Shown one piece after another: positions 1,169-63,580 of a stretch of 64,000 nucleotides of DNA. A program made the position numbers and the translations under genes. Numbering within the stretch: the stretch's first letter is position 1; every line of letters begins with the position of its first letter. The stretch spans positions 1 through 64,000 of the IMG/VR virus record IMGVR_UViG_3300044981_000315; one strand, written 5' to 3'. Below the pieces are notes generated by a model. It was not told the DNA's origin and made no database searches. It saw only the letters and a list, made by a program, of their open reading frames with translations. Source of the DNA: a virus.

Positions 1169-4100
1169 ATGTCATTTAGTAAATTTGGTGAAACCACTGA
1201 AATTAGAATTGAGAATACAGAGTCTTGTATTCCTGCCGTTAGTGCAGATATTCTAGAGAACTTCCAAAAGTTTGCTAACAATCTAAAAAAGATTGCTCCC
1301 AAGGCGGAGGATTTCTTATATTTCAGTGCCGTTATGATGCATGCTGCCGAAGCTGCCGCTCTTAATGATGATGGCACCCCCAAGTTAACTGCTAAAGGGG
1401 AAGCCGTTCAAGTAGGTTGGGATACTAGCAATAACACTTGGAAGTGGACTACTACTGATCCTAGTGTAAAACCATATAAAAATTCTAATGGTGATATTTT
1501 CCCTGAAGCAGAATTAGTTAAAGCACATAAAAAGTGGGTCCACAAGCCTCTTTGCATCGATCATAAGTCCAGTTCGGTAGACCATGTCAGAGGTTTTATT
1601 GTTGATACCTATTATGATCGTAATCTCAAGAGAGTGATTGCCCTTTGCGCTTTGGATAAAGCTGGCTATCCACAATTGGCTCGCAATGTTTCCACGGGTA
1701 TTTCTAATTGCGTTTCCATGGGAACTGCGGTAGGTCGAGCTATCTGTTCTGACTGTGCTCGTGTGGCTCGTACTGAACAAGACTTCTGTCAGCATATGAA
1801 GAACAAGTCTTGTTATGGTGAAATTAACGTAGATCTAAATCCCATTGAATTATCTATAGTTATGAATGGTGCCGATAACAGAGCTACCATTAAACATGTG
1901 TTGGCTGCCGCCAATACTCTCAATACCTATGTAGAAAATAAAGCCCAAGAATTGGCAAAACTGGCTGATTTAGGCTTTTCTGCAGATTTACACTTACAGG
2001 ATCCGAAAGGTAATGAGGGCGGGGGCTCTACTGACATTCATATTAATGCCAATAATATTGAAAAGTTTAAGGCTGATTTAGATGAAGCCTTCCAAAGATT
2101 GGCTGAAATTGCTCAATCTACAAAAATTTCTGAAAAAGATACTAATTCTTCAGTATATAATCAGTCGTCAGGTTCTATAGCCATGGATGAAGGCGCACCG
2201 ACGGATTCGGGATTGGCTCTCCAAACTCCGCAAACTGCAAGGTTTGCATCTGCTGAAGAGGCAGGTATTAGCGAGCTTCGTGAAGTTACAGCCGCTATCG
2301 AAGCCAAGTTAAACCAAATGAAACAAAGCTTGGATAAGTTAGCAAAAACTTCTATTAATACACAAGAGGAAAATATGACTGGATCAAACGAACTTAATAA
2401 AAAGGGCTACTTCCAGGGTGCTGGTGGCGTAAACGAACCAACCCCAGGTCAAGTGAAATATCCTAAAGACCCACTCAACGAACAACTTCGTGAGCATGAG
2501 GACAAGCAAATGGTAGGACAACCTCCATTTCCAGAAGTCGGTCCAGTTGATGGAATGCATCCATCCCCAGCTTCCGCTGATCCATCAGATGAACTAGCTC
2601 GTAAGAAGATGTTAGCTCGTGCTGAAGTGGAAGAGCGTGCTATGCGACGTGAAGCTATCGTTCAATTAGCTAAAGATGCTCTAGAGAGCAAGTCTTACTA
2701 CCAAGGTGGCGGTGGTGTTAATGAACCAACCCCAGGTAAAGCTAAGTACCCCAAGGATAAGCTCAATGAAGAGCTACGTGAGTATGAAGATAAGCAGATG
2801 GTTGGACAACCACCTTTTCCAGGTGTGGGTCCAGTTGATGGTCTTCACCCTTCTCCAAGCTCTGCTGAGCCAAAAGACGAACTCAAGCGTAAAGAAATGT
2901 TAGCCCGCGCCTCTTTGAGAGCTCGTTTTATCAAGGCTTCTAACGAAGATGGTACCCAAAACCTAGGCAAGAGTGCCTGGGAAGTTTTCTTGGGTGACAA
3001 ACTATTATTGACCGCATCAGTGGATGACTTATCCGCTGGTCGTTCTGAGATATTTTATGACAGCATTGCTACCAAGCCATTCGGCGCCAAATTAATTGAA
3101 AAGATTAAGTTGGAAGGCGCTCCTGCTGTAGCCAAACTTATCAAGAAAGCACAAGTTGCTCCACCTGCCCCAGATATGGGCGCTCCAGGTGGTGATGTAG
3201 GCGCTCCTCCAGGTGGTCCAGATACGGCTGCCCCTCCAGCTGAAGATACCGGTAAGTCTGGTGATCCAAAAGCTACTGCTGTTGAATTGGCTGAAAAAGT
3301 AAGAGACCTCAGCTCCGATCTAGTAGAAGCCGTCCGCGCTTTAACTGGTGAACAAGCTGAAATGGGTACTGAAGATGGTTCTAGTGCTCCTCCAGCAGGC
3401 GATATGGGTGGCGTAGGCGGTCCAGCAGGTGGTCCTGCCGCTATGGCTGATGATTCTTCCAAGTCTGCTTCCGATCTTACCTCTATGAGGAAGCACATTA
3501 ATGGTTCTTTGATTCAGGCTATGAAAGAGTCTGTTGCTGAACTCAATGATCACAAGCAAGAGCTTGAAATGATTATCAGTTTATATGACAAAGGCATTAA
3601 TGAAACTAGCAAGGAATTACTTAATTCCCTAGTGGGTGATGCTTTCAATCAATCTAAGTCTGCTGTGGCAGACGGCTTTAAGTTGATGGCTGCTTTCGTG
3701 AAGTATGCTCGTGGTACTAATGCCATCGTTAAGCGCGCTGAAATCGAGGCAGAACTTGATGCATTAGCTACCGACGAAGGAGATGCTATGAGCGATAAAA
3801 AGGATAGTCACTCCGCTGATGGTGGTGACTTAATGGGACTAATTAACGACACCAATGCAGATTTGGATGCCGTTCATAGTCTAATGAATGACGAGGGTCT
3901 TGCTGATGATGAACTAGAAGCTCTCGATGGAGAACTAGAAGCTGCTGCTGAAGATAATAATGATGCAGTGACAGTTAAAACACCACAAGAGGCTGCTATG
4001 ATTGCTAAACAAAACCCAGATGCCAGCGTAACGGTGCAAGCTTCTTTGAATACCAGAGAAGGTCGTGCCGCACTACGTGCCAAGTTGGCTGCCGATGCTT

Positions 4101-4813
4101 TGGGCAAGGAAGAAACTGGAGAAATCCAAGACGCTTCCAAGCTTCAATTCAGCGACATGCTAGACCAAGCTGACAGACTAGCTGACGGTCAAACTCAACT
4201 AGACACTAAGCCATCCGATTCTCTCGGATTGGTTGAGACCCTACCAGAAGTTAATAAGGCTATGTTGGAAGTTGCTAAAGCTCCACCAAAGGTTCGTAAG
4301 GAAGCAGAAGCTATTCAAAAGTTGGTATCTGAGGGTTCTCTAGATCCAGCCGACCTAGATGCTCTAGTAGCCGAAGGTTTAGACAAGGACGCCGTTGCTT
4401 ACTGGAAGAAATACTACGGTCAAACTGACGGTGGTAGCGAATTTGCTAGCGAACTAGTTAAAGAGCATGTAAAGGCTCAACTAGAAGAGCAACTAAACAA
4501 GTATCGTGTCAAATTGGCCAGAGCTTATGAGCTAGCCTATGACATGGCTGAACGTGGTTTAGTCAATGCTGACAGAGCTTCTATCTCTCTACAGGTAGAC
4601 GAAGTTATGAAGTTTGATGACCCAAGCTTTGAATCTCTCAAGAGAGTAGTTGCCAGACACCCAGTGACTGGTTTACGTAAGCAAGCCGGACGTCTACCAT
4701 TAGTTGGTGTGAAAGACGAAAGCGAACTACAAGCAGTTGCTGCCGAAGGAACTGAAGAAGATGCATATTCACAACTATCTTCAATGTTCGGTACCAAAAA
4801 AGGTGCATTCTAA
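1169..4813 (+). CDS. Prohead protease fused to scaffold/core protein
   Basis: A 1214-residue protein behind a good SD (AGGGAG). Residues 50-245 fit the prohead (assemblin-like) serine protease pattern: a candidate catalytic His132 in IDHKS, a candidate nucleophile Ser183 in CVSMG, and a family-like ELSIV strand at 227-231. A Cys cluster (Cys193, Cys196, Cys207, His209) follows the Ser and could bind zinc. After residue 260 the protein becomes charged and helical, as expected of scaffold, with two copies of a 74-residue repeat from residues 412 and 508, a Gly/Pro-rich linker near 670-710, an acidic stretch near 870-960 and a helical C-terminus. Most phages encode protease and scaffold separately or nested. 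Two internal SD-ATG pairs could yield scaffold-only products of 812 and 341 residues. Family assignment is by motif reading. Confidence 0.8.
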   Translation: MSFSKFGETTEIRIENTESCIPAVSADILENFQKFANNLKKIAPKAEDFLYFSAVMMHAAEAAALNDDGTPKLTAKGEAVQVGWDTSNNTWKWTTTDPSVKPYKNSNGDIFPEAELVKAHKKWVHKPLCIDHKSSSVDHVRGFIVDTYYDRNLKRVIALCALDKAGYPQLARNVSTGISNCVSMGTAVGRAICSDCARVARTEQDFCQHMKNKSCYGEINVDLNPIELSIVMNGADNRATIKHVLAAANTLNTYVENKAQELAKLADLGFSADLHLQDPKGNEGGGSTDIHINANNIEKFKADLDEAFQRLAEIAQSTKISEKDTNSSVYNQSSGSIAMDEGAPTDSGLALQTPQTARFASAEEAGISELREVTAAIEAKLNQMKQSLDKLAKTSINTQEENMTGSNELNKKGYFQGAGGVNEPTPGQVKYPKDPLNEQLREHEDKQMVGQPPFPEVGPVDGMHPSPASADPSDELARKKMLARAEVEERAMRREAIVQLAKDALESKSYYQGGGGVNEPTPGKAKYPKDKLNEELREYEDKQMVGQPPFPGVGPVDGLHPSPSSAEPKDELKRKEMLARASLRARFIKASNEDGTQNLGKSAWEVFLGDKLLLTASVDDLSAGRSEIFYDSIATKPFGAKLIEKIKLEGAPAVAKLIKKAQVAPPAPDMGAPGGDVGAPPGGPDTAAPPAEDTGKSGDPKATAVELAEKVRDLSSDLVEAVRALTGEQAEMGTEDGSSAPPAGDMGGVGGPAGGPAAMADDSSKSASDLTSMRKHINGSLIQAMKESVAELNDHKQELEMIISLYDKGINETSKELLNSLVGDAFNQSKSAVADGFKLMAAFVKYARGTNAIVKRAEIEAELDALATDEGDAMSDKKDSHSADGGDLMGLINDTNADLDAVHSLMNDEGLADDELEALDGELEAAAEDNNDAVTVKTPQEAAMIAKQNPDASVTVQASLNTREGRAALRAKLAADALGKEETGEIQDASKLQFSDMLDQADRLADGQTQLDTKPSDSLGLVETLPEVNKAMLEVAKAPPKVRKEAEAIQKLVSEGSLDPADLDALVAEGLDKDAVAYWKKYYGQTDGGSEFASELVKEHVKAQLEEQLNKYRVKLARAYELAYDMAERGLVNADRASISLQVDEVMKFDDPSFESLKRVVARHPVTGLRKQAGRLPLVGVKDESELQAVAAEGTEEDAYSQLSSMFGTKKGAF
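2364..2377 (+). promoter_or_regulatory. Internal ribosome binding site and in-frame start
   Basis: AAGAGGA at 2364-2370 sits 4 bases before an ATG at 2375-2377 that is in frame with the protease/scaffold gene (residue 403). Initiation here would make an 812-residue protein lacking the protease domain but keeping both 74-residue repeats. In phage lambda the scaffold Nu3 starts inside the protease gene C in the same frame, so this arrangement has a precedent. Confidence 0.5.
2402..2623 (+). repeat. Scaffold repeat, copy 1
   Basis: First copy of a 74-residue coding repeat (residues 412-485 of the protease/scaffold protein). Shared blocks include GGVNEPTPG, KYPKD, EDKQMVGQPPFP and MLARA. Copy 2 begins 288 bases downstream with only scattered substitutions, indicating a tandem duplication with linker. 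The repeat begins just after the internal start at 2375. Confidence 0.85.
2690..2911 (+). repeat. Scaffold repeat, copy 2
   Basis: Second copy of the 74-residue repeat (residues 508-581), keeping GGVNEPTPG, KYPKDKLNEELRE and KQMVGQPPFP. It is followed by a different segment (NLGKSAWEVF onward) that does not repeat. Confidence 0.85.
3777..3790 (+). promoter_or_regulatory. Second internal ribosome binding site and in-frame start
   Basis: AAGGAG at 3777-3782 lies 5 bases before an ATG at 3788-3790, in frame at residue 874 of the protease/scaffold protein. Initiation would give a 341-residue C-terminal product that opens with an acidic region and ends in the helical tail. The SD is as good as those of the main genes, but purine-rich codons (Asp-Glu-Gly) could produce it by chance. 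Confidence 0.4.
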
Positions 4814-13962: not shown

Positions 13963-14760
13963 ATGTCTCTAAAACTTTTACAGCCAGGTACAGAACCCCT
14001 TGGCCAATTTGATGTTCGTGATGCCGAACTAACCTCCTTTAAGGGTGGCGAAGTTTGTGCTTTTGCTGCTGTTCCAACCAACACTCAACCAGGCGTTACT
14101 ACCGCTGGTCTAGACCAAGCCGCTTATGATGTATTCGACGGTTATGTTCAAGAAACTGCCGGCATCTATATGCGTCCAGCCGTTTCTAAGAACTGGGTTG
14201 CTTCCAACTCCGCTCTTCCAGCTGTTCAATTTCCAAACTATACTTCTCTAGCTGCTGCTACTCGTCCAGTCTTCTTGGCTGACGATGGTATCTTAGGATA
14301 CGGTACTCTATTCGGCGCTGTCGTCGGTGGAACTGTCGGTCAACAAGTAAACGGTCCTAACACCTACACTGGTGCCATCCTCGGACCTAACACTGCTACT
14401 GGCTCTGGCAAGATGACTTTGTGGGATAAGCCAGGTCTTTACGCCGTCTCTTTGGACGCCGTGGATACCACTGCTTCTACTGGTCTAGTACCAACTAACC
14501 TCACCTTAACTGTCGGAACTCAACTGTCCTTCACTTCTGGATCTTTCGGTCTCGGTGGTGGTTTGTTAACCCCAGTCGGTGGAAACCCAGCCCTTGCAAC
14601 CTATGTTGTAGGAACTTTCATTGAGTTCAACACCAACGGTTCTTTGGTAACTACTCCTAATTACTTGGTTGCCGCTCTCAACAGCCCATCCGGTAACGTT
14701 AGCTCTGTAACCAACAGAAACTTCCAGTTCGCAACTATCGCTTTCAGACCATTCGTCTAA
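13963..14760 (+). CDS. Putative major decoration protein of the capsid
   Basis: A 265-residue beta-rich, Gly/Thr-rich protein with a strong SD (AAGGA). It shares its N-terminal pattern and a GSGKMTLW block with the 6605 product. Codons are biased toward C-ending forms (gtc, ctc, tac, ttc, aac) as in the adjacent capsid gene, suggesting high expression. It is enclosed by its own signals: a small AGCGT/ACGCT hairpin upstream and a strong terminator downstream. These features suit an abundant capsid-surface protein; the decoration role is inferred. The 115-base gap before it holds no gene. Confidence 0.65.
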   Translation: MSLKLLQPGTEPLGQFDVRDAELTSFKGGEVCAFAAVPTNTQPGVTTAGLDQAAYDVFDGYVQETAGIYMRPAVSKNWVASNSALPAVQFPNYTSLAAATRPVFLADDGILGYGTLFGAVVGGTVGQQVNGPNTYTGAILGPNTATGSGKMTLWDKPGLYAVSLDAVDTTASTGLVPTNLTLTVGTQLSFTSGSFGLGGGLLTPVGGNPALATYVVGTFIEFNTNGSLVTTPNYLVAALNSPSGNVSSVTNRNFQFATIAFRPFV

Positions 14761-14783
14761 TTAGCTGACTAGTTAAAAATATT

Positions 14784-14820
14784 AAACGACCTATCAGAAA
14801 CGGTAGGTCGTTTTCTTTTG
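14784..14820 (+). terminator. Rho-independent terminator after the decoration gene
   Basis: A perfect 10-base stem (AAACGACCTA 14784-14793, TAGGTCGTTT 14804-14813) with a 10-base loop, followed by a T-rich tract. It starts 24 bases after the stop of the 13963 gene and separates that gene from the major capsid gene. Confidence 0.9.
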
Positions 14821-14840
14821 TGTTTTTATTTTTCAATTAT

Positions 14841-14912
14841 GGGAATAATTTGTTATTCAATTAACGCGCTTTTGCGTGGCTGGTCTGATGACTGGCAAAT
14901 AATTCCTATAAT
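14841..14912 (+). promoter_or_regulatory. Structured leader and promoter candidate of the major capsid gene
   Basis: GGAATAATTTG (14842-14852) and CAAATAATTCC (14896-14906) pair as an 11-base stem with one central mismatch, enclosing a small ACGC/GCGT hairpin. TATAAT follows at once (14907-14912), then the SD GTGGAG at 14915-14920. Transcription from this TATAAT would begin almost at the SD, so it could alternatively be part of the untranslated leader. The region from the terminator to here has no gene. Confidence 0.4.
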
Positions 14913-14926
14913 AAGTGGAGACACTG

Positions 14927-15940
14927 ATGAATATGTTTAATAACCAAAACCAAGTAAATGCAAGCTCACTACGTGACTGTTTGCAAACTTTGGTTAAATA
15001 TGCAGCAATTTTGGAAGAGAACACTCCTTCCAATCAAGGTCTAGCAGGCCAACCATCCCTCAGTGATGACAAACGTGACGAATTAATTTCTCGCGCTATC
15101 ATGACTCAAGACGGTAAAATTGCTCTAGCTCAGGCTATGGCAAACCCAATCCGTAGAAACCTCGATTACCACGGTATCGCTCGTCGTGCCCTAGTTGTCG
15201 ATCCATTGCCACAAGGTGCTATGCCAACTTACGATAGAGATATCGACGTTGCCGCTGTAGTTATCTCTAGCAACGGTACTGGTCCAGAATCTCGTGTCTT
15301 CGGTGACCGTGTAGTGGTTCCAGAATTCGAAATCTACGCAAACCCAACGGTGAGAATCGCTGAAGTTAAGCGTCGTAGATTCAACGTCATTGACAGAGCT
15401 GTGCAGAAGGCTCGTCAAGAAATCATGGCTCAAGAAGACGCAAACGTTTTCGCAGCCTTGGACGCAGCCTCTTCTGTGGAAAACACCCTAACTGACATCG
15501 CTGATGCTGGTCTTCTCAAGAGAGACTTGGTTGAAATCAAGCAACAGATTGATCGTTGGGACTTAGTTACTACCAAGTACTTCATGAATATCAATGAATT
15601 CACTGATATTCTAAAGTGGGGTAGCGGTGGTGGACAAGGCGTAGGCGGCGGTGATTTCGATCCCGTAACCATGCGTGAAGTTCTACAAACTGGTCTATAT
15701 GCCCATATCTGGGGTACTGACATTATGGTATCTAAGATCGTCCCACCTGGAACTATATACGGCGTAGCTGATCCGGAGTTTGTTGGGGTCATGCCAATTC
15801 GTCAGGACATTGAAGTTCTACCAGCCGACGAGCCAAAGCAATTGAAGCTTGGATGGGTAGTTTCAGAAATTATTGGTATCGCTATTGTGAACCCACGTGG
15901 TTGCGCAGCCGGGCGCAAATCGGTCGTAATCGGAGCTTGA
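14927..15940 (+). CDS. Major capsid protein (HK97 fold)
   Basis: A 337-residue protein. I chose ATG 14927 because the in-frame GTG at 14915 is itself the SD (GTGGAG). The sequence has the layout of jumbo-phage HK97-fold capsid proteins: an N-terminal helical region, an E-loop-like region with VFGDRVVVPEFEIYANP, a long spine-helix region (VIDRAVQKARQEIMAQEDANVF) and a C-terminal A-domain with Gly-rich and Pro-containing loops (VPPGTIYGVADP). Length is normal for the fold. Flanking terminators make it an independent, strongly expressed unit, and codon choice is biased as in the decoration gene. It would be the substrate of the scaffold and protease encoded at 1169. Confidence 0.88.
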   Translation: MNMFNNQNQVNASSLRDCLQTLVKYAAILEENTPSNQGLAGQPSLSDDKRDELISRAIMTQDGKIALAQAMANPIRRNLDYHGIARRALVVDPLPQGAMPTYDRDIDVAAVVISSNGTGPESRVFGDRVVVPEFEIYANPTVRIAEVKRRRFNVIDRAVQKARQEIMAQEDANVFAALDAASSVENTLTDIADAGLLKRDLVEIKQQIDRWDLVTTKYFMNINEFTDILKWGSGGGQGVGGGDFDPVTMREVLQTGLYAHIWGTDIMVSKIVPPGTIYGVADPEFVGVMPIRQDIEVLPADEPKQLKLGWVVSEIIGIAIVNPRGCAAGRKSVVIGA

Positions 15941-15978
15941 TCAATAATATCAAGTAGTTAGATAACGAAATAAATATT

Positions 15979-16012
15979 GAAAAAGCTACCTCTTAACGGG
16001 TAGCTTTTTCTT
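15979..16012 (+). terminator. Strong Rho-independent terminator after the capsid gene
   Basis: A perfect 12-base stem (GAAAAAGCTACC 15979-15990, GGTAGCTTTTTC 15999-16010) with an 8-base loop and a T-rich end. It ends capsid transcription before the homing endonuclease gene. Confidence 0.93.
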
Positions 16013-16034
16013 TGTTATATAGCAGGTGTATATG

Positions 16035-16056
16035 CATAATCAGGGATATAATTATG
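16035..16056 (+). promoter_or_regulatory. Inverted repeat holding the endonuclease start codon
   Basis: CATAAT (16035-16040) and ATTATG (16051-16056) are perfect inverted arms; the second contains the ATG of the homing endonuclease, and the loop contains its SD (AGGG). Folding in RNA would hide the start. The stem is short (6 pairs), so this is only suggestive on its own; other endonuclease genes in the window have the same arrangement. Confidence 0.35.
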
Positions 16057-16941
16057 AACCTAATTCCAATAAAACAACGCAACACCAAGGCTAACGCGCT
16101 CATTGACACGCATATCGAAGAAATAAATGCTCTTTATGAGGGCGGTATGTCTTTAACTAAAATTAGTAAAAAACTATCGATAGACCGAAAGGCACTTGCC
16201 CGACTATTAAAAAATAATGGAGTTGAGTCGCGCAAAGGGTTTTCTTATGCACGCAAATACGATCTTAATGAGCACTACTTCGACGTTATCGACATCGAAG
16301 AAAAGGCCTATATTCTGGGCTTTATTTATGCAGACGGCAATAATTTATTTCGCACTAATAGGATATCTATCCACCTATCTAAAACGGACGAAGAGATACT
16401 TCAGAAAATGTCGCAAATCTTTTATGGAGAAGAGATCCTCAAATATAATACGCGTAAAAATAAGAATGGAAAGATATTTTACTATGTATGGCTTAACCTT
16501 CATAGCAAGCATATGAGCCAACATCTCGCTACTCTTGGCGTGGTCGAAGCCAAATCGCATAAAATTGTCTTTCCCGAATGGCTGGATAAATCCCTATACC
16601 GCCATTTTATCCGAGGACTAATCGATGGAGATGGCTGGATCTATCTGCCCAAAATAGAAGATAATAGAAACAGTCCTAACGTGGGACTAATTTGCACTCG
16701 TAAATTAAATGATTTTCTGAAGGAATACTTTGAGGAAGAATTGGGGCTCAAATCCTATTTGATCAAGGCACACAAACAAGACTTTGAAGTTATGTGCGAG
16801 ATCCGAGTCAAGAACTATCATCAATGCAAGATATTTTTGGACTGGCTATATAAGGATGCTACCATCTTTTTGCAGAGGAAGCACAATTTGTATTTGGACT
16901 TCTTGAATAGATATAATCAATTGAGGGAGCAGAATAAATAA
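16054..16941 (+). CDS. LAGLIDADG homing endonuclease
   Basis: A 295-residue site-specific DNA endonuclease of the two-motif LAGLIDADG family. ATG 16054 has SD AGGG; an upstream in-frame TTG at 16012 lies inside the terminator tail and is unlikely. Residues 22-60 look like a helix-turn-helix (SLTKISKKLSIDRKALARLL). The two signature helices are AYILGFIYADGN (85-96) and FIRGLIDGDGWI (185-196), each with the acidic catalytic residue. It stands free between virion genes, the usual pattern for mobile endonuclease genes that spread by cutting a related phage lacking them. It converges with the minus-strand toxin-like gene 4 bases downstream. Confidence 0.9.
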   Translation: MNLIPIKQRNTKANALIDTHIEEINALYEGGMSLTKISKKLSIDRKALARLLKNNGVESRKGFSYARKYDLNEHYFDVIDIEEKAYILGFIYADGNNLFRTNRISIHLSKTDEEILQKMSQIFYGEEILKYNTRKNKNGKIFYYVWLNLHSKHMSQHLATLGVVEAKSHKIVFPEWLDKSLYRHFIRGLIDGDGWIYLPKIEDNRNSPNVGLICTRKLNDFLKEYFEEELGLKSYLIKAHKQDFEVMCEIRVKNYHQCKIFLDWLYKDATIFLQRKHNLYLDFLNRYNQLREQNK

Positions 16942-47675: not shown

Positions 47676-50600
47676 ATGAGCAACTACCCCACTGCATTAG
47701 ATACGGATGTTACGCTAACTCCAGTTAATGACAATTTGTCTCAAATTGGTGATATGGCGATCAACCAACTTCGTGACGCAGTATTTGCTATAGAGCAATA
47801 TGTTGGTACCAATCCTAATGGTGTTAGCATTGAGTCCAGGTTAGGGCTCTTGGTCAATCAAGAGGGTATGATTAATTCTTCAGTTATTACCTCTTTGGGT
47901 TTAGTGACGCTGCCCATTACGCAAGACCAAATTGCCGACAACGCTGGTATTCCAGAATCCAAATTACAGTTAAACTTTCCAACTCTTACTTTGTATAACT
48001 ACATCAGAGATTTATCTAAAGATGTTAATTTGGCTTTGGGTTGGATCGCCGTAACTGGCTCCAAATTGGAACCGCATTTAATTGGTGCTATCTATCGTCA
48101 CCAAATGTCAGATATTGATGTGAGTGAAAACCCTGCACAGTATTTGGATAACGTTTTCCGTACCCAACGCAATAATACTAATTCTTATACTTTAGTTAAT
48201 GATATCAACAACGAACTATTGGCTCATCAATGGGCAGATGGTTCCCCCTTTGGTACCCTACAAAATATCACGACTAATGATGGTTCCACGTATCCATCTT
48301 ACTACTCTCATGTAGCTAGTTCCATTTTTCTGGATACCAGCAGCTTTGTTACTATCTCGCAGACTGCCGATGACTTGCAGTTGTTTGCTGATTTTATTGA
48401 TCACTCCAGCATTTTCTTGTTGGGTACTAGAATACAAAACTTGTATGCTAACGGCATTTCTAGAGTTTCCACTTCTTCTAGTTTATTGATTGATGGTTAT
48501 GGTCAATCCATAGTTCCGTCTACTCCAGTCATTACTTATTTGCTAGGACAGTTCGGTAATAGTAGTTCCCCGATGGATAATATCAATTTTGGTGATGATA
48601 TCGTGCAATTTATGCCGACCAACACCTCTAATAATGTTTTTGCTTCACAGTTTGCTGCCGTTAATGTGGGAGATATTATCTATGTTAATTATGGCACGGT
48701 AGAAGTTGGTTTTATTATTCAAGAGAAAAGATACAACCAAAATGGTGGTAATGCCGTTTATACTATCCGTATCAATGGCAAGAATTTAGCTTTTAATTCT
48801 ACTACTGCTACCGCTTATATTGATCGCTCCCTCATCAACACCAATAAATATGGCGTGTTGGCGATGGCTCCTGCATTTATTCCAGGTGTTCCTCTTGGCG
48901 AACCTAGTCTCATCATTGGTAATCCTCGTGGTGCTCAGGCCCTAGGTAATGGTTTTGATGCTAGCCAGTTAAATAGCACTCATTACCTGCTATATTTAGG
49001 TTTATATCCTGATGGTATTCCTGCTGATGGTTATTCTATTTTACCAGCCATTGATATAACAGGTAATGCTGGTGCCACTCCAGGATCTTATACTTTGGAT
49101 AGTGTAGTACAGACAGCCAATTTAGCTTTTAGACAACCCGGTTTTAACTATCGATTTATTGCGTTTGAGTATCAGGGTAATTTTGGTATCATGCTTGCCG
49201 ACCCATACAACAACGCTTCTTTCTCCATTTTCAATGGCGTAGTTAATAGTGTTGGAGGTTATGATCCTACTGCTACTGCTATTGCTTTTCCCAACAACGT
49301 GGTAGATGTTTTTACCGATGGATATGCTGCCGCCGTAGATCCTTTGGGATTTGGATTGGGTGGTGCTAATATCGCTAGCCCTCCATATCAATCTTCTTAC
49401 ACCGTAGGATCAGCCTCTCTACCCACTCAATTATTTGTGCCACTCAAGAGAAATAACTATTACGTTAACGGTGTAGAAAAAGAGGAAATGGCTCCAGACG
49501 GATATCAAGTTACCGACACTTATGGTGATGGATACTGGGTAGCTACGGTAGACGGTTATTATATTAATCCAGGCGTTAGTGTAGAAAAAACTTATAGTAT
49601 TACATATGATTTATCTGCTACAGGACTAGAAGTAGGTAAAACCATCGTAGTGCAATCTTTGGGAGGAGATGGAACTTTTCCATTAGATTTTGGTCGATTC
49701 ATTATTAGTGCCGTTAATTTTGGTTGCTGTCCCAATGCTAGCACCACTATCACGGTGTACGATTCTGTTCAGGGTATTGGTTTTTCACCAGATAGTACGT
49801 CCGGAACCAATACTATTACAAGTGGAAAAGTAGCTATTTATTTTAGTTCCGATTCTGTCTCATTTAATGCGGAGTCAGCTACCGATTTTAGTGCAGTTAA
49901 TTTCCCATTCAAGAGACATTTTGAGGTATACATCGATCAAAATGCTCATACTTTCACTCATGAGAGAGGAAGGATGAATGTCTCTGGATCTAATCAGCTC
50001 ATTAATCCTCCATCAGTGGGTGGTATAACTTTAGCTAGCACCCCAAGTCTTTCCTATTTTGACCTAGTAGCCATCTCTCCTAAATTGCGTGGCTATCCAT
50101 TTGGTAATGGTGTAACTAAAATTACACTTAATATACTTAGTTACAACAGTGTTACTGGTGTATATTCTGGATATTTATGCTCCAGTTTAGGCAATAATTT
50201 GGGACCACTCACTGTTGGTAAGCAGGGAGAGATAACTAGGTTCTATGATGAGACTAATATTGACTACATCGATATTAATCTAAACTCTACTGTTGCTATT
50301 AGTTCTTTTGCTAACCAGCAAATTGATATCCAATTGTTCCCAACTTTGGCACTAGACGAACAGATTATGATTTTGGGAAGTTGCCAGTTAAACGATACGA
50401 ACCAACAACTAACTTATCTGACCGATAGACGACAGTTTGGTAATGTTAGCGAGGCACAACTAACTACTTCTGCTCTAGATTATATTGCAGCTCCTACTCG
50501 ACTTCTCCAAGAGAATGGCATTGTCAGGGGCTTTGATGTAGTTTCTTCGCCTACAGGTGCCGCACCTTTTTCCAGCGAAATAGTAATGAGTGGTGGTGTA

Positions 50601-52838
50601 GCGGTTGTTAATGGCAATATCGTTCAAGTCAACAATAGAACCATCAATGTTCCGGTAGTGTATGAAGTAATTGGCGCATCACACACCATCAACAATACTA
50701 TTACCTGGTTTATTTGCATCAATCAAGATGGAGAATATGAGTTTATCGCTTGTACGGATTTCAATCCAAATAGTGCGCCCATTTATTTGGACAACGGTTT
50801 GGATGAAAATAGAATTTTCTATGTAGCCAACCCTAACAACAGCCTGAGCAACTATTATCCAGTTCGCGCTACTTATTTAGCCGATTTAGTTGAGAATCAA
50901 AAAGATGTAGTGTTGGTAGGTATGATTACCTCTACCGTTACTTTACAAGACAGCGTCTATGCTATTACTATCGCCACCCCTACTGTTGATATTGATGCTC
51001 GCCGATTTGTAGCCAATGGTTATGGCGGTTTAACCGCTCCATTTGTCTTAGGTCCACAAGGCAGTTTCCGAAACTTTACTTCTTTAACCAACTGGTTAAC
51101 TCAACTAGCTAATAGTAACTCTACTGTTGATGGATATAATGACGTTGGACAAACTATCAAAGTGGTGGGCAACACCACAGTTTCCTCTACCTATACTTTG
51201 GATTATTTAAGTCAGGTAACTTTTGAAGGCATGGGTGGAAGCATCACTATCACTAACGATATTGGTTTTGCGTTAGGTAGCAATGTTGCCTTCAAAAACG
51301 TGACGGTTGATTATCTATATGATCCAGTAGTTAATAGCGATCCTGATTATTCAGATGGCTATGTATCTAACCCTCTTAAGGCAGCATTTTACGCTTCGGC
51401 TGGTGATGGTTATGGTGAACTGGCTATACCTGGGCGACTTCAGAATGTCACCTTCGAGGATTGTTTATTTACTTCTCCGAACCAAAGTAGATTTGCCTTT
51501 CTCGGTTTCAACCTTGTTTCCAGCCTTTCCACTATGCAAAATATCAGAGTAGTGAACAACAAGTTCCAAACCAGTTTTGATGGTGATGATAGACGAGCCG
51601 TTATCACTTTCGTTGGACCGACTGTTCAATCGCTTCCAACCGTGGATGCTCCTAATGGTCCGCTTCTCAACAATTGTTTAATTGATAATAACTTGTGTAA
51701 TAAGAATCAGCTTATCTTGATTAGTTCGCCATATGTTAGTGGAACAGGTCCAAGTCCTGTTGTTACGAGTTTTGCTGTCCTCGGTGCTTCTACCGTTACT
51801 AATACGGGACCCACTGTTGTTACTGGTGATGTTGGCGTTTCTCCTGGAACTTCTATTACCGGTTTCCCTCCTGGTACTGCCACAGGTGGTACTCATTCTA
51901 ATGATTCTGATGCTATCGCTGCTGCGGTAACTCTTAATGCCGCATATTTGGCTGCTCAAGCACCGCAAGGTGGCACGCTTATCGTAGCTGGTACCTATGC
52001 TAATGGTGCCGTCATAACTCCAGGCGTTTATTTCGCTACTAGCTCCCTTAACTTAACTGGTGGTACTGTTACCTTGAATGGTGCAGGTAATTATACTTTC
52101 CAAATTGCTTCTACGCTAGTAACAGCCTCCAATACTATTATTGCTTTAACTAATGGTGCTAATGCCGCCAATGTAACATGGGCAGTGGGTAGCTCAGCCA
52201 CCCTTGGTACCGGTACTGTCTTTAATGGTAGTATTTTGGCTCTAGTTTCTATTACTGATAATGGTGGTTCAACTGTTAATGGTCAATTATTTGCATCAAC
52301 TGCCGCTGTTACTCTTAATGATACAACTGTTACCATCCCAGGTGCGCCTGCAGCAATAACGCCAGTGTCAGAACTAATAGCTGCTAGCAACCTTAAGATT
52401 GTAGGCAACACTTGTGGCGCCATCAACGTCCTGGTCAAACGAAATATTACGTCTCAACTTCTCGATGATGTCTATAATTTTATGCAGGCATCAGGTACCA
52501 TTATCTCTGGCAATACTTGTCCATTTATTTACTCAGGATATGCTAATGGAAATATCTGTGATGGCGCTGGTAATAGACCGTTTATGAATGGCATCTTGCC
52601 AGCTAGCGCAACTCCACCCATTTATACAGGATACATGTTAATTTCTAACAATGTATGTTCTTACATTCAGACGGGACGCCAGGTTTCCTATGAAGATCCC
52701 TTTGAAGGAACCTCTCCGTTGATTATAGTCAACAATCAACTACAAGCCTATCCCAATATCAATTATTTGACACCTTACTATGATGGTCAAGCTGTGCAAC
52801 TAATTGCTATTCTGGTGGACGAGGTATCGGTGATATAA
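47676..52838 (+). CDS. Giant tail/baseplate protein with beta-helix and DUF3494 domain
   Basis: A 1720-residue protein. The N-terminus (NYPTALDTDVTLTPVNDNLS) and the following helix resemble fibre or baseplate attachment regions. Long beta-rich stretches follow, with nine DGY motifs. From about residue 1140 a parallel beta-helix begins (VTFEGMGGSITITND). It is interrupted at residues 1365-1559 by a DUF3494 (ice-binding-like) domain, after which beta-helix coils resume (ASNLKIVGNTCGAINV). Its TAA overlaps the ATG of the 52838 gene, whose N-terminus continues beta-helix-like coils. It is probably a tail appendage or baseplate-peripheral protein; no catalytic residues identified. Confidence 0.72.
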   Translation: MSNYPTALDTDVTLTPVNDNLSQIGDMAINQLRDAVFAIEQYVGTNPNGVSIESRLGLLVNQEGMINSSVITSLGLVTLPITQDQIADNAGIPESKLQLNFPTLTLYNYIRDLSKDVNLALGWIAVTGSKLEPHLIGAIYRHQMSDIDVSENPAQYLDNVFRTQRNNTNSYTLVNDINNELLAHQWADGSPFGTLQNITTNDGSTYPSYYSHVASSIFLDTSSFVTISQTADDLQLFADFIDHSSIFLLGTRIQNLYANGISRVSTSSSLLIDGYGQSIVPSTPVITYLLGQFGNSSSPMDNINFGDDIVQFMPTNTSNNVFASQFAAVNVGDIIYVNYGTVEVGFIIQEKRYNQNGGNAVYTIRINGKNLAFNSTTATAYIDRSLINTNKYGVLAMAPAFIPGVPLGEPSLIIGNPRGAQALGNGFDASQLNSTHYLLYLGLYPDGIPADGYSILPAIDITGNAGATPGSYTLDSVVQTANLAFRQPGFNYRFIAFEYQGNFGIMLADPYNNASFSIFNGVVNSVGGYDPTATAIAFPNNVVDVFTDGYAAAVDPLGFGLGGANIASPPYQSSYTVGSASLPTQLFVPLKRNNYYVNGVEKEEMAPDGYQVTDTYGDGYWVATVDGYYINPGVSVEKTYSITYDLSATGLEVGKTIVVQSLGGDGTFPLDFGRFIISAVNFGCCPNASTTITVYDSVQGIGFSPDSTSGTNTITSGKVAIYFSSDSVSFNAESATDFSAVNFPFKRHFEVYIDQNAHTFTHERGRMNVSGSNQLINPPSVGGITLASTPSLSYFDLVAISPKLRGYPFGNGVTKITLNILSYNSVTGVYSGYLCSSLGNNLGPLTVGKQGEITRFYDETNIDYIDINLNSTVAISSFANQQIDIQLFPTLALDEQIMILGSCQLNDTNQQLTYLTDRRQFGNVSEAQLTTSALDYIAAPTRLLQENGIVRGFDVVSSPTGAAPFSSEIVMSGGVAVVNGNIVQVNNRTINVPVVYEVIGASHTINNTITWFICINQDGEYEFIACTDFNPNSAPIYLDNGLDENRIFYVANPNNSLSNYYPVRATYLADLVENQKDVVLVGMITSTVTLQDSVYAITIATPTVDIDARRFVANGYGGLTAPFVLGPQGSFRNFTSLTNWLTQLANSNSTVDGYNDVGQTIKVVGNTTVSSTYTLDYLSQVTFEGMGGSITITNDIGFALGSNVAFKNVTVDYLYDPVVNSDPDYSDGYVSNPLKAAFYASAGDGYGELAIPGRLQNVTFEDCLFTSPNQSRFAFLGFNLVSSLSTMQNIRVVNNKFQTSFDGDDRRAVITFVGPTVQSLPTVDAPNGPLLNNCLIDNNLCNKNQLILISSPYVSGTGPSPVVTSFAVLGASTVTNTGPTVVTGDVGVSPGTSITGFPPGTATGGTHSNDSDAIAAAVTLNAAYLAAQAPQGGTLIVAGTYANGAVITPGVYFATSSLNLTGGTVTLNGAGNYTFQIASTLVTASNTIIALTNGANAANVTWAVGSSATLGTGTVFNGSILALVSITDNGGSTVNGQLFASTAAVTLNDTTVTIPGAPAAITPVSELIAASNLKIVGNTCGAINVLVKRNITSQLLDDVYNFMQASGTIISGNTCPFIYSGYANGNICDGAGNRPFMNGILPASATPPIYTGYMLISNNVCSYIQTGRQVSYEDPFEGTSPLIIVNNQLQAYPNINYLTPYYDGQAVQLIAILVDEVSVI
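51768..52352 (+). other. DUF3494 ice-binding-like domain in the 1720-residue protein
   Basis: Residues 1365-1559 begin SFAVLGASTVTNTGPTVVTG and run through GVSPGTSITGFPPG, ITPGVYFATSSLNLTGGTVT, GAGNYTFQIASTLVT, VTWAVGSSATLGTG and NGSILALVSITDNGG. This order is diagnostic of DUF3494, the beta-solenoid of many bacterial ice-binding and adhesin proteins. It interrupts a beta-helix region. Confidence 0.9.
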
Positions 52839-55134: not shown

Positions 55135-58100
55135 ATGGCGGATATCCAAGGAGCTACAAATGCATTACCAGGCGTCTTTACGCTAGTTCAGACGCAAGCC
55201 GCTGGTGCCGCTATTCCAGGCGGTTCTCGCGTAACTGCTATGATTGGTCAAGGCCAAACCAACGGTACCATCGTGGCTCAGGCTCAAGGTGGCGGTCTAG
55301 ACGGTTTAGATCCAACTTATACTTCTACTAGTGGTTCTGACGGTAGGCACTTTCTTATTACTGGTGCCCCTCTTATTCCAAATAGAACGACTTTGTTTTT
55401 GAACGGTATTCCTTTGGTGGGTATGGAGTCTGTCATTACCGCTACCACTACTTTTAGCAATCAGTTTCAGTATTTGCTAGATCCAGTTACCGGTGAAATT
55501 TTACTACAATCTGCTTATATAGTTAATCAAGGTGGCGCTTTTTATGTGCCACTTTCCACTAACGTAGGTTTGGGAGTTATCAACGGCTTGACCTTAGTGG
55601 ATGTTAACGCTCCACCAGAGACTTGGACCGTTCGTTGTATAGCTGTGCAAAGAAACTCTATGAATCAACCTATCGGCGGTACTGCTCAGTTTATCGCCAT
55701 CGGTTCTGTTTCTGGTGCTCAAGTAGATGCTAATGGCAACCCAATCATTTGGATGGTAGCTAATGGTTCCGCTCCATCAATTCTATCTTTTGGTATTTTG
55801 GCAGGTTCTGGTATTACTAATACCGGAGCTTCTACAGTTACTGGCGATGTTGGTACCTATCCAACTACCACCGAAACAGGTTTCGGAACCCTCACCATTA
55901 ATGGTACCAACCATATGGGAGACTCGGTAACTCAAGCCGCCAAAACTGCCTTAACTGCTGCCTATAATGCGGCTCAAGCTCTATCTGGTGCTGTTACCAT
56001 TCCAACCGACCTTAATGGACAGACTTTAACTCCTGGTGTTTATAGTTCTCTTTCTGGAACTTTTATGAACACTGGAACACTAACCCTTAATGGTGCTGGT
56101 AGCTATACTTTCCAGATGGCCACCACCCTAGTGACTGCTGCCTCCAGTACTGTCGTTTTGACAGGTGGTGCAACTGCTGCTAATATTACCTGGGCAGTAG
56201 GCAGTTCTGCTACTCTCGGTACCTCTTCTCATCTTGAAGGTAGTATTCTCGCCCTCACTTCTATCACTGCTACTACTGGCGCTACTGTTAATGGTAGTTT
56301 GTTAGCTCAAAACGGCGCTGTGACTTTGGATACCAATACTATTACAGCGACTGCGACTCCATCTACTTCACCATCAGGTACTGTCTCTAATGGTATTTTG
56401 AAATTCAGTATCTCTGAAACGCAAGTGATGAATGTGGTGGTTTCGCCATTCGTACCAGGCGATGCTTTCACCATTGTTGTTAATAGTGGTGTGTTGCTGA
56501 AGAATGATGCCTTAACTGCTACTTATATTCCGGTAGCCAACATTAATGCTCCTACTTTGACTCAGGGTCTTAACCAAGTAGTTACTCAATTTGGAACTCC
56601 TAGTTTAGATAATAGCTTGTCTTTGGGTGCTCAATTGTTCTATGCTAATGGAGCTTCCAGCCTTATTTGTGTACAGGCAGCCCCTCCACTTCCACGTAGA
56701 ACTTTCTTCAACCTATCTCCTTCGGTCAATGCTGCCTCCACTAATGATGATGATTTTATCTTCCCATTGCCAGTGGGCGTGGTACCAGCTTTTGATGATG
56801 ATATCTATTTCTTTGTCACCAACAACAGCACCCAGGTAGAAACACAACTTTTACCTAACAAACAAACTTACTATACCCTAGGCACTGCCGGTAATCCAAC
56901 TCAAAATCAATTCATTATGAGCAATGCTCCAGCTCCTACTGGTTTCTCCTACTTTTATACCGTCATTCAAAGTTTCGAGACGGTAGTTAGTGGTTTTGAC
57001 GGATATATAGCTCCAATCAACTCAGCTCTACCTAACCAGGGCGCCTTTAGTTCTTCGGTTACTTTTGACAATACTTACATCGGTTTAGAACTTAAAGTCA
57101 TTGATGCTGTTAACTTCGCCAACATCAATACGTATACGGTAACTAACGTAGTTAATGGTGTCTTGTATGTAACTGGACCCGTACCTCTTGCTAATTTCAC
57201 AAACCAGAATCCAACTACTTTCGAGTTGATTGACCCAGTGGATGGCTTACCTGTAACAGGTGGCAGTGGTACTGACGGCGTATTGACTATTGCTGGTGCT
57301 GGGCTAGGTAACTTAACTAGCACGGCTGTCGATTTCTCCCCTTTTAATAGCAAGCTCAATATCAACGGATACCAGCTTCAAATCAATGGATCTGCCAACA
57401 ATGATGGTCTTTACTATATTGTTGGATTTGACTCCATAACCAATACGTTAACCCTACAAACTACAGTGGTATCCGAACATAATCTTCGTTATGAGGTTAT
57501 CAATCCAGCTTTGGAAAGCAACTATATCGTTGTCAACCATAACGTAGTACCAAATGGTTATGGTCTCAGCGTCAGTTTGGTAGATAACCGTGATGCTACT
57601 TTCTACGATGCTGGATGGATCAATGCCCTAGCTGCTCTAGAAACAGTAGAATGCGATATTTTGGTTCCACTACCAAACCAGACCATTAGCGTTATTTTCC
57701 AGAACTGTGTTAACCACTGTATTGCCATGAGCAACATTGTTAACAAGAAGGAACGCGTATTGTTCATCGGAGCTATCAACGGTTTGACTCCAGCCAACTT
57801 GACTGGTGCTCAATTAGCCGCAGTAGAAGACCTAGGACCACTAGAAGGTATTCCAGGTTCCAACCCAAGCTTGATTCTACAGGCCAACCCACAAGACTTA
57901 GCCAACTATTCTGTCGCTGCCGCTTATGGTGATACTTACCGTGTAGTCTACTTCTACCCTGACCAAATCATTGTAGCTGTATCAAGTGGTAATATCCTTA
58001 TCGATGGTTTCTACATCGCTGCCGCTGCCGCTGGTTATGAGTCTGCGGATATAATCATACAAAACCCAATTACCAACAAGGTATTTTCAGGCTTCACTAT

Positions 58101-62713: not shown

Positions 62714-63580
62714 ATGCCATTTTCTTTTAACGACCTTATTAACAATACCAATGCTGCACAAGCTAGTGTTAATGCAGCCACTCCAATTACCAGTAGTCTG
62801 GCTAGTACAGTGCAAAGTATTGGTAATGGCTTACCTTACAGTTTTGTTCCTAATACGGCGGATGCAGTTTTGCAGCGCAATATTATTTCATGGTTTGTAC
62901 CACAGTATGGCGTAGCGCAGATGTTTATTAACCCACAGAATATTAGCTATGCCAACAAAAAGTTAATTACCAAGGATAGAACCAAAGGCGGATTCACTTT
63001 ACAATATTGGGGTGAGGATTTGACTACCATCAATATCTCTGGCACTACGGGTAGCGCTGGCATTGAAGGTCTCAACATGTTAGAGGAAATCTATCGTGCC
63101 GAACAGTATGCTTTTGATGCGGTAGGCTTAACCTTGGCTGGTAATAATGCTTTTGCCGATATCACTCAAAATCTAGTTAACAATGTAGGTGGTAACCTAG
63201 GTCAATTTACCAATAGCTTAACGCCACCCAATACCCAAGTAGGTCCCACTGCCTCCGCTCCCGGAGCTGGTTTGTTAGGCGGTATTTTAGGGATGGATTC
63301 TCCTAACAATACCATGTCAGCTAGAAATATTCCATCGCTGGCTCAATTAGCTTTTACAGTGCAGATGTATTACAATGGATGGATTTTTACTGGCTATTTT
63401 GATAGCATGACTTTTACTGAAAGAGCTGATAACTTTTTAATTGATTATCAAATGATCTTTATGGCTACACAGCGTAGCGGATATAGAACTAACTATTTTC
63501 CTTGGACACATGCCGCCAACACTGGTTATAGTGAATACAATACGCCTAACTCTTTTAGTGGGAATATTGTGGGACAGTAA
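62714..63580 (+). CDS. Tail structural protein after the tape measure
   Basis: A 288-residue beta-rich protein following the tape measure, where baseplate hub or distal tail genes lie in myoviruses. It contains SWFVPQYGVAQMFINPQNIS, RTKGGFTLQYWGEDLTTINI and a GTTGSAGIEGLNMLEEIYR block, a layout I recognise from phage tail proteins but cannot name. The Gly/Pro-rich loop at residues 170-200 separates two parts. Confidence 0.68.
   Translation: MPFSFNDLINNTNAAQASVNAATPITSSLASTVQSIGNGLPYSFVPNTADAVLQRNIISWFVPQYGVAQMFINPQNISYANKKLITKDRTKGGFTLQYWGEDLTTINISGTTGSAGIEGLNMLEEIYRAEQYAFDAVGLTLAGNNAFADITQNLVNNVGGNLGQFTNSLTPPNTQVGPTASAPGAGLLGGILGMDSPNNTMSARNIPSLAQLAFTVQMYYNGWIFTGYFDSMTFTERADNFLIDYQMIFMATQRSGYRTNYFPWTHAANTGYSEYNTPNSFSGNIVGQ

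Follow-up and report, generated by a model that had tools for sequence, protein, structure and literature searches.

A DUF3494 beta-solenoid domain predicted within a huge-phage contractile tail sheath

The tail sheath protein encoded in a stretch of viral DNA from IMG/VR (record IMGVR_UViG_3300044981_000315, positions 1 to 64,000; these 64,000 nucleotides are called the window below) carries a complete DUF3494 domain (Pfam ID PF11999, Ice_binding) in a hairpin loop, and another DUF3494 domain lies within a probable virion protein encoded two genes upstream. Since the loop holding the solenoid is empty in all 62 full-length relatives of the sheath, the tail of the virus is probably coated with an adhesive domain, whose ligand would be ice or cells. 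The features are collected in Table 1.

Table 1. Positions of the sheath, its neighbors, and the DUF3494 domains; positions refer to the window unless a viral locus is named
Feature	Position	Strand	Evidence
Contractile tail sheath protein, 1136 aa	55135..58545	+	Foldseek, VIA-align, phrog_16991, LE2-3 and phage G sheaths, 62 full-length relatives
Inserted segment, about 203 residues, sheath residues 212-415, borders +/-1 residue	55768..56379	+	Alignment with full-length relatives
DUF3494 (PF11999, Ice_binding) domain 1, sheath residues 221-404, predicted beta-solenoid with one helix	55795..56346	+	PF11999 profile; model m663eb264b0c8; Z 31.6 to 7bwy
Probable virion protein, 1720 aa, two genes upstream of the sheath	47676..52838	+	Relatives upstream of the sheath in related huge phages
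DUF3494 domain 2, residues 1368-1553 of the 1720-aa protein	51777..52334	+	PF11999, 136.7 bits
Probable tail tube protein, 222 aa	58604..59272	+	Place after the sheath, gene order; weak phrog_985 match, E 0.032
Mx1-like sheaths with permuted DUF3494	L070 7350-10115; L074 2272-5022; L056 7212-10142; near-copies		

Sequence searches give modest evidence that the 1136-residue open reading frame (ORF) is a sheath, because the sheath is divergent. The Phage_sheath_1C profile (Pfam ID PF17482) reaches 18.2 bits, which is below its cut-off of 26.9, and the tail sheath family phrog_16991 matches with an E value of 4.6e-5. The annotated sheaths of Eggerthella phage LE2-3 (tblastn E value 1e-9, 34% identity) and Bacillus phage G (7e-5, 24.5% identity) align over the C-terminal 150 to 170 residues only; this part is homologous, but neither phage record has a DUF3494 match. 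Structural comparison decides the assignment. The ColabFold model of the whole sheath was built from 60 homologues, with the DUF3494 part close to a single-sequence prediction and of low pLDDT, and its 27 best Foldseek matches in the PDB are all contractile-tail entries, the best being sheath entries of phages 812, KP1 (vB_Kpn_Lilla1), phiCD508, T4, and P1. VIA-align superposes the model on the sheath cores with Z scores of 14 to 18, at about 3.3 A over about 205 residues, and the match brackets the insert (model residues 30-1022), so that both the N- and the C-terminal part of the conserved core are present in the model. Based on this predicted structure and on its homologues, the ORF is a contractile tail sheath, which bears out the sheath of about 1136 residues proposed in the initial annotation. 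A 952-aa viral protein labelled tail sheath in BFVD is 59% identical to the sheath flank of the second, domain-centred model described below. The sheath has 80 relatives in IMG/VR (52-99% identity) on contigs of up to 480 kb, indicating that it belongs to a huge phage and that the record of 65,587 bases is most likely a piece of such a genome.

Elsewhere in the window, residues 105-214 of a 1214-aa ORF (1169-4813) resemble head maturation proteases (phrog_18299, E value 2.6e-12), and a 288-aa ORF (62714-63580) shows a sub-threshold similarity to a putative tail tube initiator (Pfam ID PF23980, E value 2.2e-5) and to phrog_1011 (7.4e-7). The tRNA and Rfam scans of the window found nothing.

Within the sheath, the PF11999 profile matches over its entire length (positions 1-208 of 208) with an E value of 2.4e-47 and 161.7 bits, against a cut-off of 28.7. 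The initial annotation had assigned residues 218-405 to DUF3494, with coordinates that prove right within a few bases. The Antarctic ice binding protein EfcIBP (PDB ID 6eio) is found with phmmer at an E value of 7.3e-38 and is 43% identical to the domain in the structure alignment. We also modelled residues 30-480 of the sheath from an alignment that included other DUF3494 domains; the rows of this alignment are partly misplaced and the sheath flanks are poor, while the domain is good, with a pLDDT of 89-98 across it, strands, and a helix at residues 235-253 of the segment. All 31 Foldseek matches of this model at an E value below 0.001 are DUF3494 ice binding proteins. VIA-align superposes domain 1 on an Antarctic ice binding protein (PDB ID 7bwy) at 1.2 A over 192 residues, and the Z score is at least 27 for every DUF3494 structure among the matches listed. 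The profile search and structure prediction that the initial annotation had proposed thus return a full-length PF11999 match and a predicted DUF3494 beta-solenoid, supporting its reading as to family, place inside the sheath, and fold, whereas the high-avidity binding that it added is something we can only infer. The domain shares with the DUF3494 ice binding proteins AnpIBP (PDB ID 7bwx), EfcIBP, and SfIBP (PDB ID 6bg8) the full-length architecture of solenoid and helix and the SSATLG strand of the B-face. It differs from them in lying inside a sheath rather than in a secreted protein or a cell adhesin and in having no cysteine.

The insert is joined to the sheath by a short N-terminal linker, SAPSIL, and a Ser/Thr/Pro-rich C-terminal one, TPSTSPSG. 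None of the 62 distinct full-length huge-phage relatives has a long insert at this position; their loop is closed, with the consensus W-(I/V)-A-N-G-x-(V/T)-V-S-N-G-(I/V)-L-S-F and small variations, and the sheath of the window alone has 203-204 extra residues, which start right after ANG (209-211) and stop before TVSNG (416-420). With the same loop closed in all these relatives, about 203 residues have been inserted cleanly. In the whole-sheath model the insertion point falls between the beta-strand segments 185-206 and 422-428, in the part that separates the N-terminal core strands (34-47) from the C-terminal core, which is also where the accessory domains of other sheaths are reported to sit, directed away from the tube (PMC9230969). 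The coils of AnpIBP follow the order beta1-beta6-beta5-beta4-beta3-beta2, making the first and last coils neighbors (PMC7277481), so that the chain ends of DUF3494 leave the domain close together. This proximity would allow the domain to be grafted into a hairpin loop, and would equally allow its circular permutation.

The second DUF3494 domain, which the initial annotation overlooked, turned up when all 65,587 bases of the record were searched. Two relatives of the 1720-aa protein (L153 and L161) align without a gap across the insertion point, up to residue 1353/1358 and then again from 1557/1559; judging from these alignments, DUF3494 is inserted into this protein in the same manner as in the sheath. 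The two domains are 55% identical to each other, and 33 other domains score closer to domain 1 than domain 2 does. When domain 1 is compared by quarters, the third quarter alone has domain 2 as its closest match, and the first quarter is 80% identical to a Ruminococcaceae domain and 50% identical to domain 2. Against these scores and identities stands a quick tree, which pairs the two domains with an SH-aLRT support of 92 on long branches. Separate acquisitions, perhaps with a later exchange, are therefore likely, and at least as likely as a common ancestry.

A scan with four DUF3494 domains yields 72 viral loci. In nine of these, all from IMG/VR (L056-L060, L070, L074, L075, and L078), DUF3494 lies inside a sheath of a different family, phrog_279 (E value 1.9e-24 for L070 and 2e-22 for L074), and all nine align to the annotated sheath of Myxococcus phage Mx1. 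These sheaths resemble the one of the window in having an internal DUF3494, but the domain is permuted there; in L070 the profile positions 42-190 come first (137.5 bits), followed by positions 1-47 (50.1 bits). Another protein with a permuted DUF3494 is encoded on the same contig as L070 (L071). DUF3494 is also found within a 2580-aa Baseplate_J protein (L031 3909-11648), with a further DUF3494 ORF downstream (14182-16560). More than one DUF3494 ORF is present in L031, L032, L041, L042, L064, L066, L069, and L077, and two domains occur in a single ORF in L041, L066, L077, and L079-L082. DUF3494 is a recurrent decoration of virion proteins, with independent occurrences in the sheaths of at least two lineages. 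Contigs as long as 186 kb encode an 824-aa ORF (L079 7422-9893, likewise L080-L082 and L085) whose two DUF3494 domains belong to a divergent viral clade, and one phage contig carries a groEL-type chaperonin (L038 4608-6212, phrog_5725, E value 4.9e-120) near its DUF3494 ORF.

Both domains of the window and two other viral queries gave no tblastn match in 50,697 phage records, a search in which low-complexity filtering may hide divergent copies. Homologues of an ice binding-like protein have been placed mostly in Synechococcus phage S-SKS1 (PMC11515562), and PF11999 was not found in the record of this phage (NC_020851). The giant virus Hyperionvirus has the DUF3494 fold as well (BFVD), in annotated DUF3494 proteins of a eukaryotic giant virus and not in a sheath. 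The open literature yielded no earlier report linking DUF3494 with a phage or ice binding with a sheath. The view of the initial annotation that no described sheath contains this domain holds for that literature and for the annotated collections searched, but not for IMG/VR, with its nine permuted examples. What is already known is that PF11999 occurs in viruses and that sheath accessory domains have been proposed to aid adhesion (PMC9230969).

The viral domains also differ from the cellular ones in their cysteine content. Cysteine is present in 8 of 69 full-length viral DUF3494 domains and in 73 of 83 cellular ones, counts in which near-copies were retained and for which the cellular set was chosen for closeness to the query. 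Such scarcity fits virion proteins folded in the reducing cytoplasm better than secreted proteins or cryoprotectants. Among cellular domains, those nearest to the sheath copy (63-66% identity) belong to Ruminococcaceae, Bathyarchaeota (with isolates named fen and palsa), Acidimicrobiaceae, and Pelosinus metagenome-assembled genomes (MAGs), and several of them are found, by eye, in proteins that have a transmembrane or LPxTG-like tail or contain Ig-like repeats.

By analogy with the Ig-like domains of other sheaths, we consider it somewhat more probable than the opposite that the tail displays the DUF3494 solenoid along its length as a multivalent adhesion domain. Horizontal transfer would have brought the beta-solenoid into a hairpin loop in the outer, non-core part of a huge-phage sheath, and a second DUF3494 would have entered another probable virion protein. 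Each sheath subunit would then expose one solenoid on the outer tail surface, or six in every ring if the sheath has the usual symmetry, and the repeated flat faces rich in Ser/Thr/Ala/Gly may act as a low-affinity adhesive, in which weak binding per copy would add up because the solenoid is repeated along the tail. The virion could in this way be held on a surface, such as host envelope or matrix glycans, biofilm, particles, or ice, before its receptor-binding proteins engage. The exposure along the tail that the initial annotation had assumed is supported indirectly, by the position in a non-core hairpin loop and by the published accessory domains that point away from the tube (PMC9230969), from which we infer that the solenoid faces outwards.

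The sheaths with additional domains described by Evseev et al. in 2022 (types 2 and 3, among them T4 gp18, 812, and jumbo phages) share the same core and carry their extra domains off the tube, with a proposed role in adhesion or stability. For their Ig-like accessory domains the help in adhesion is a proposal rather than a demonstrated function. The extra domains reported there are mostly Ig-like beta-sandwiches and some are helical, and no DUF3494 solenoid was found among them (PMC9230969). PF11999 itself has been counted among the adhesive domains that fibrillar adhesin-like proteins carry (PMC8286594). An adhesive role is further supported by the insertions in the sheath and in a neighboring probable virion protein, the occurrence in other sheaths and in a baseplate J protein, the few cysteines, and the surface protein-like cellular kin. 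Against it stands the absence of PF11999 from all 25 related huge-phage records, many of them 140-480 kb long, which suggests that the function is dispensable or lineage specific and which a neutral passenger would also fit. The sheath of phage T4 is described as able to form without its accessory domains (PMC9230969).

Characterised members of the DUF3494 family are documented to bind ice, and the solved structures closest to domain 1 are the ice binding proteins EfcIBP and AnpIBP. A sheath that binds ice could keep virions on ice or in brine channels together with ice-associated hosts, or let them survive freeze-thaw. At the B-face positions of AnpIBP, T/S/A/G residues make up 83% in domain 1 and 79% in domain 2, with 4% and 0% charged residues, and both domains have an SSATLG strand (sheath residues 357-362 in domain 1) identical to that of AnpIBP, whose S153 and T156 are required for ice binding (PMC7277481). 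The same composition, however, is equally good elsewhere (median of 88% for viral and 83% for cellular domains), and 152 other DUF3494 domains look alike at this face, including those of Streptomyces, a Ruminococcaceae MAG, and mesophiles. The predicted ice binding face is thus intact in both window domains, though not better preserved there than in other members of the family, and its composition is permissive but not diagnostic. Ice is a possible ligand of the sheath domain for which the sequences offer no support, and we regard an ice binding sheath as unlikely. A bolder version, in which a cooperative solenoid array makes the tail ice-adhesive, concentrates virions at host-bearing ice or helps them survive freezing, and in which phages repeatedly built DUF3494 in, once permuted, for that purpose, seems to us a shade less likely still. 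If the array did bind ice, we know of no earlier ice-adhesive virion.

No more probable than an ice binding sheath is a structural or neutral passenger, with the solenoid stabilising neighboring subunits or having no function and being tolerated as its loop faces away from the tube. The hairpin loop is tolerant of insertion, a role in cementing the sheath disc has been suggested for domain II of the phage 812 sheath (PMC9230969), and the absence of DUF3494 from the related records fits this reading, but the presence of DUF3494 domains with different ancestries in two probable virion proteins, the recurrence in other sheaths and a baseplate protein, and a codon usage like that of resident phage genes argue for a maintained use. 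We find it very improbable that the domains act as an auxiliary metabolic gene (AMG) that supplies the host with a phage-made cryoprotectant, the role proposed where three PF11999 genes from Arctic viral units were annotated as possible cryoprotection AMGs (PMC11515562). Those ice binding-like genes of Arctic vOTUs were read as AMGs, whereas both copies in the window are inserts within large proteins, one of them the sheath, and neither is a free-standing gene. An assembly chimera or sequencing artefact that fused a bacterial DUF3494 gene to a phage sheath is harder still to credit. The exact junction 24-mers occur in no other viral contig, so that a second contig spanning the junctions was not found, and the relative with 98% identity (L003) begins downstream of the insert. 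Both inserts nevertheless keep the reading frame on either side, sit at a precise loop in two genes, and lack cysteine as other phage copies do. Measured against the phage, their codon usage scores +0.19 and +0.22 log-odds per codon, compared with +0.10 to +0.17 for other phage genes and -0.04 to -0.16 for the nearest cellular domains, indicating that both inserts have been resident for some time.

The DUF3494 solenoid adds a further fold class to the accessory domains of contractile tails, alongside the Ig-like ones and in at least two sheath lineages. The sheath offers a testable case of domain grafting into a loop of a conserved machine, with the 62 closed-loop relatives representing the state before the insertion, and the Mx1-like sheaths offer a natural circular permutation of DUF3494. 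The findings also carry a warning that PF11999 on a viral contig should not be called a cryoprotection gene before its location has been checked for a virion protein.
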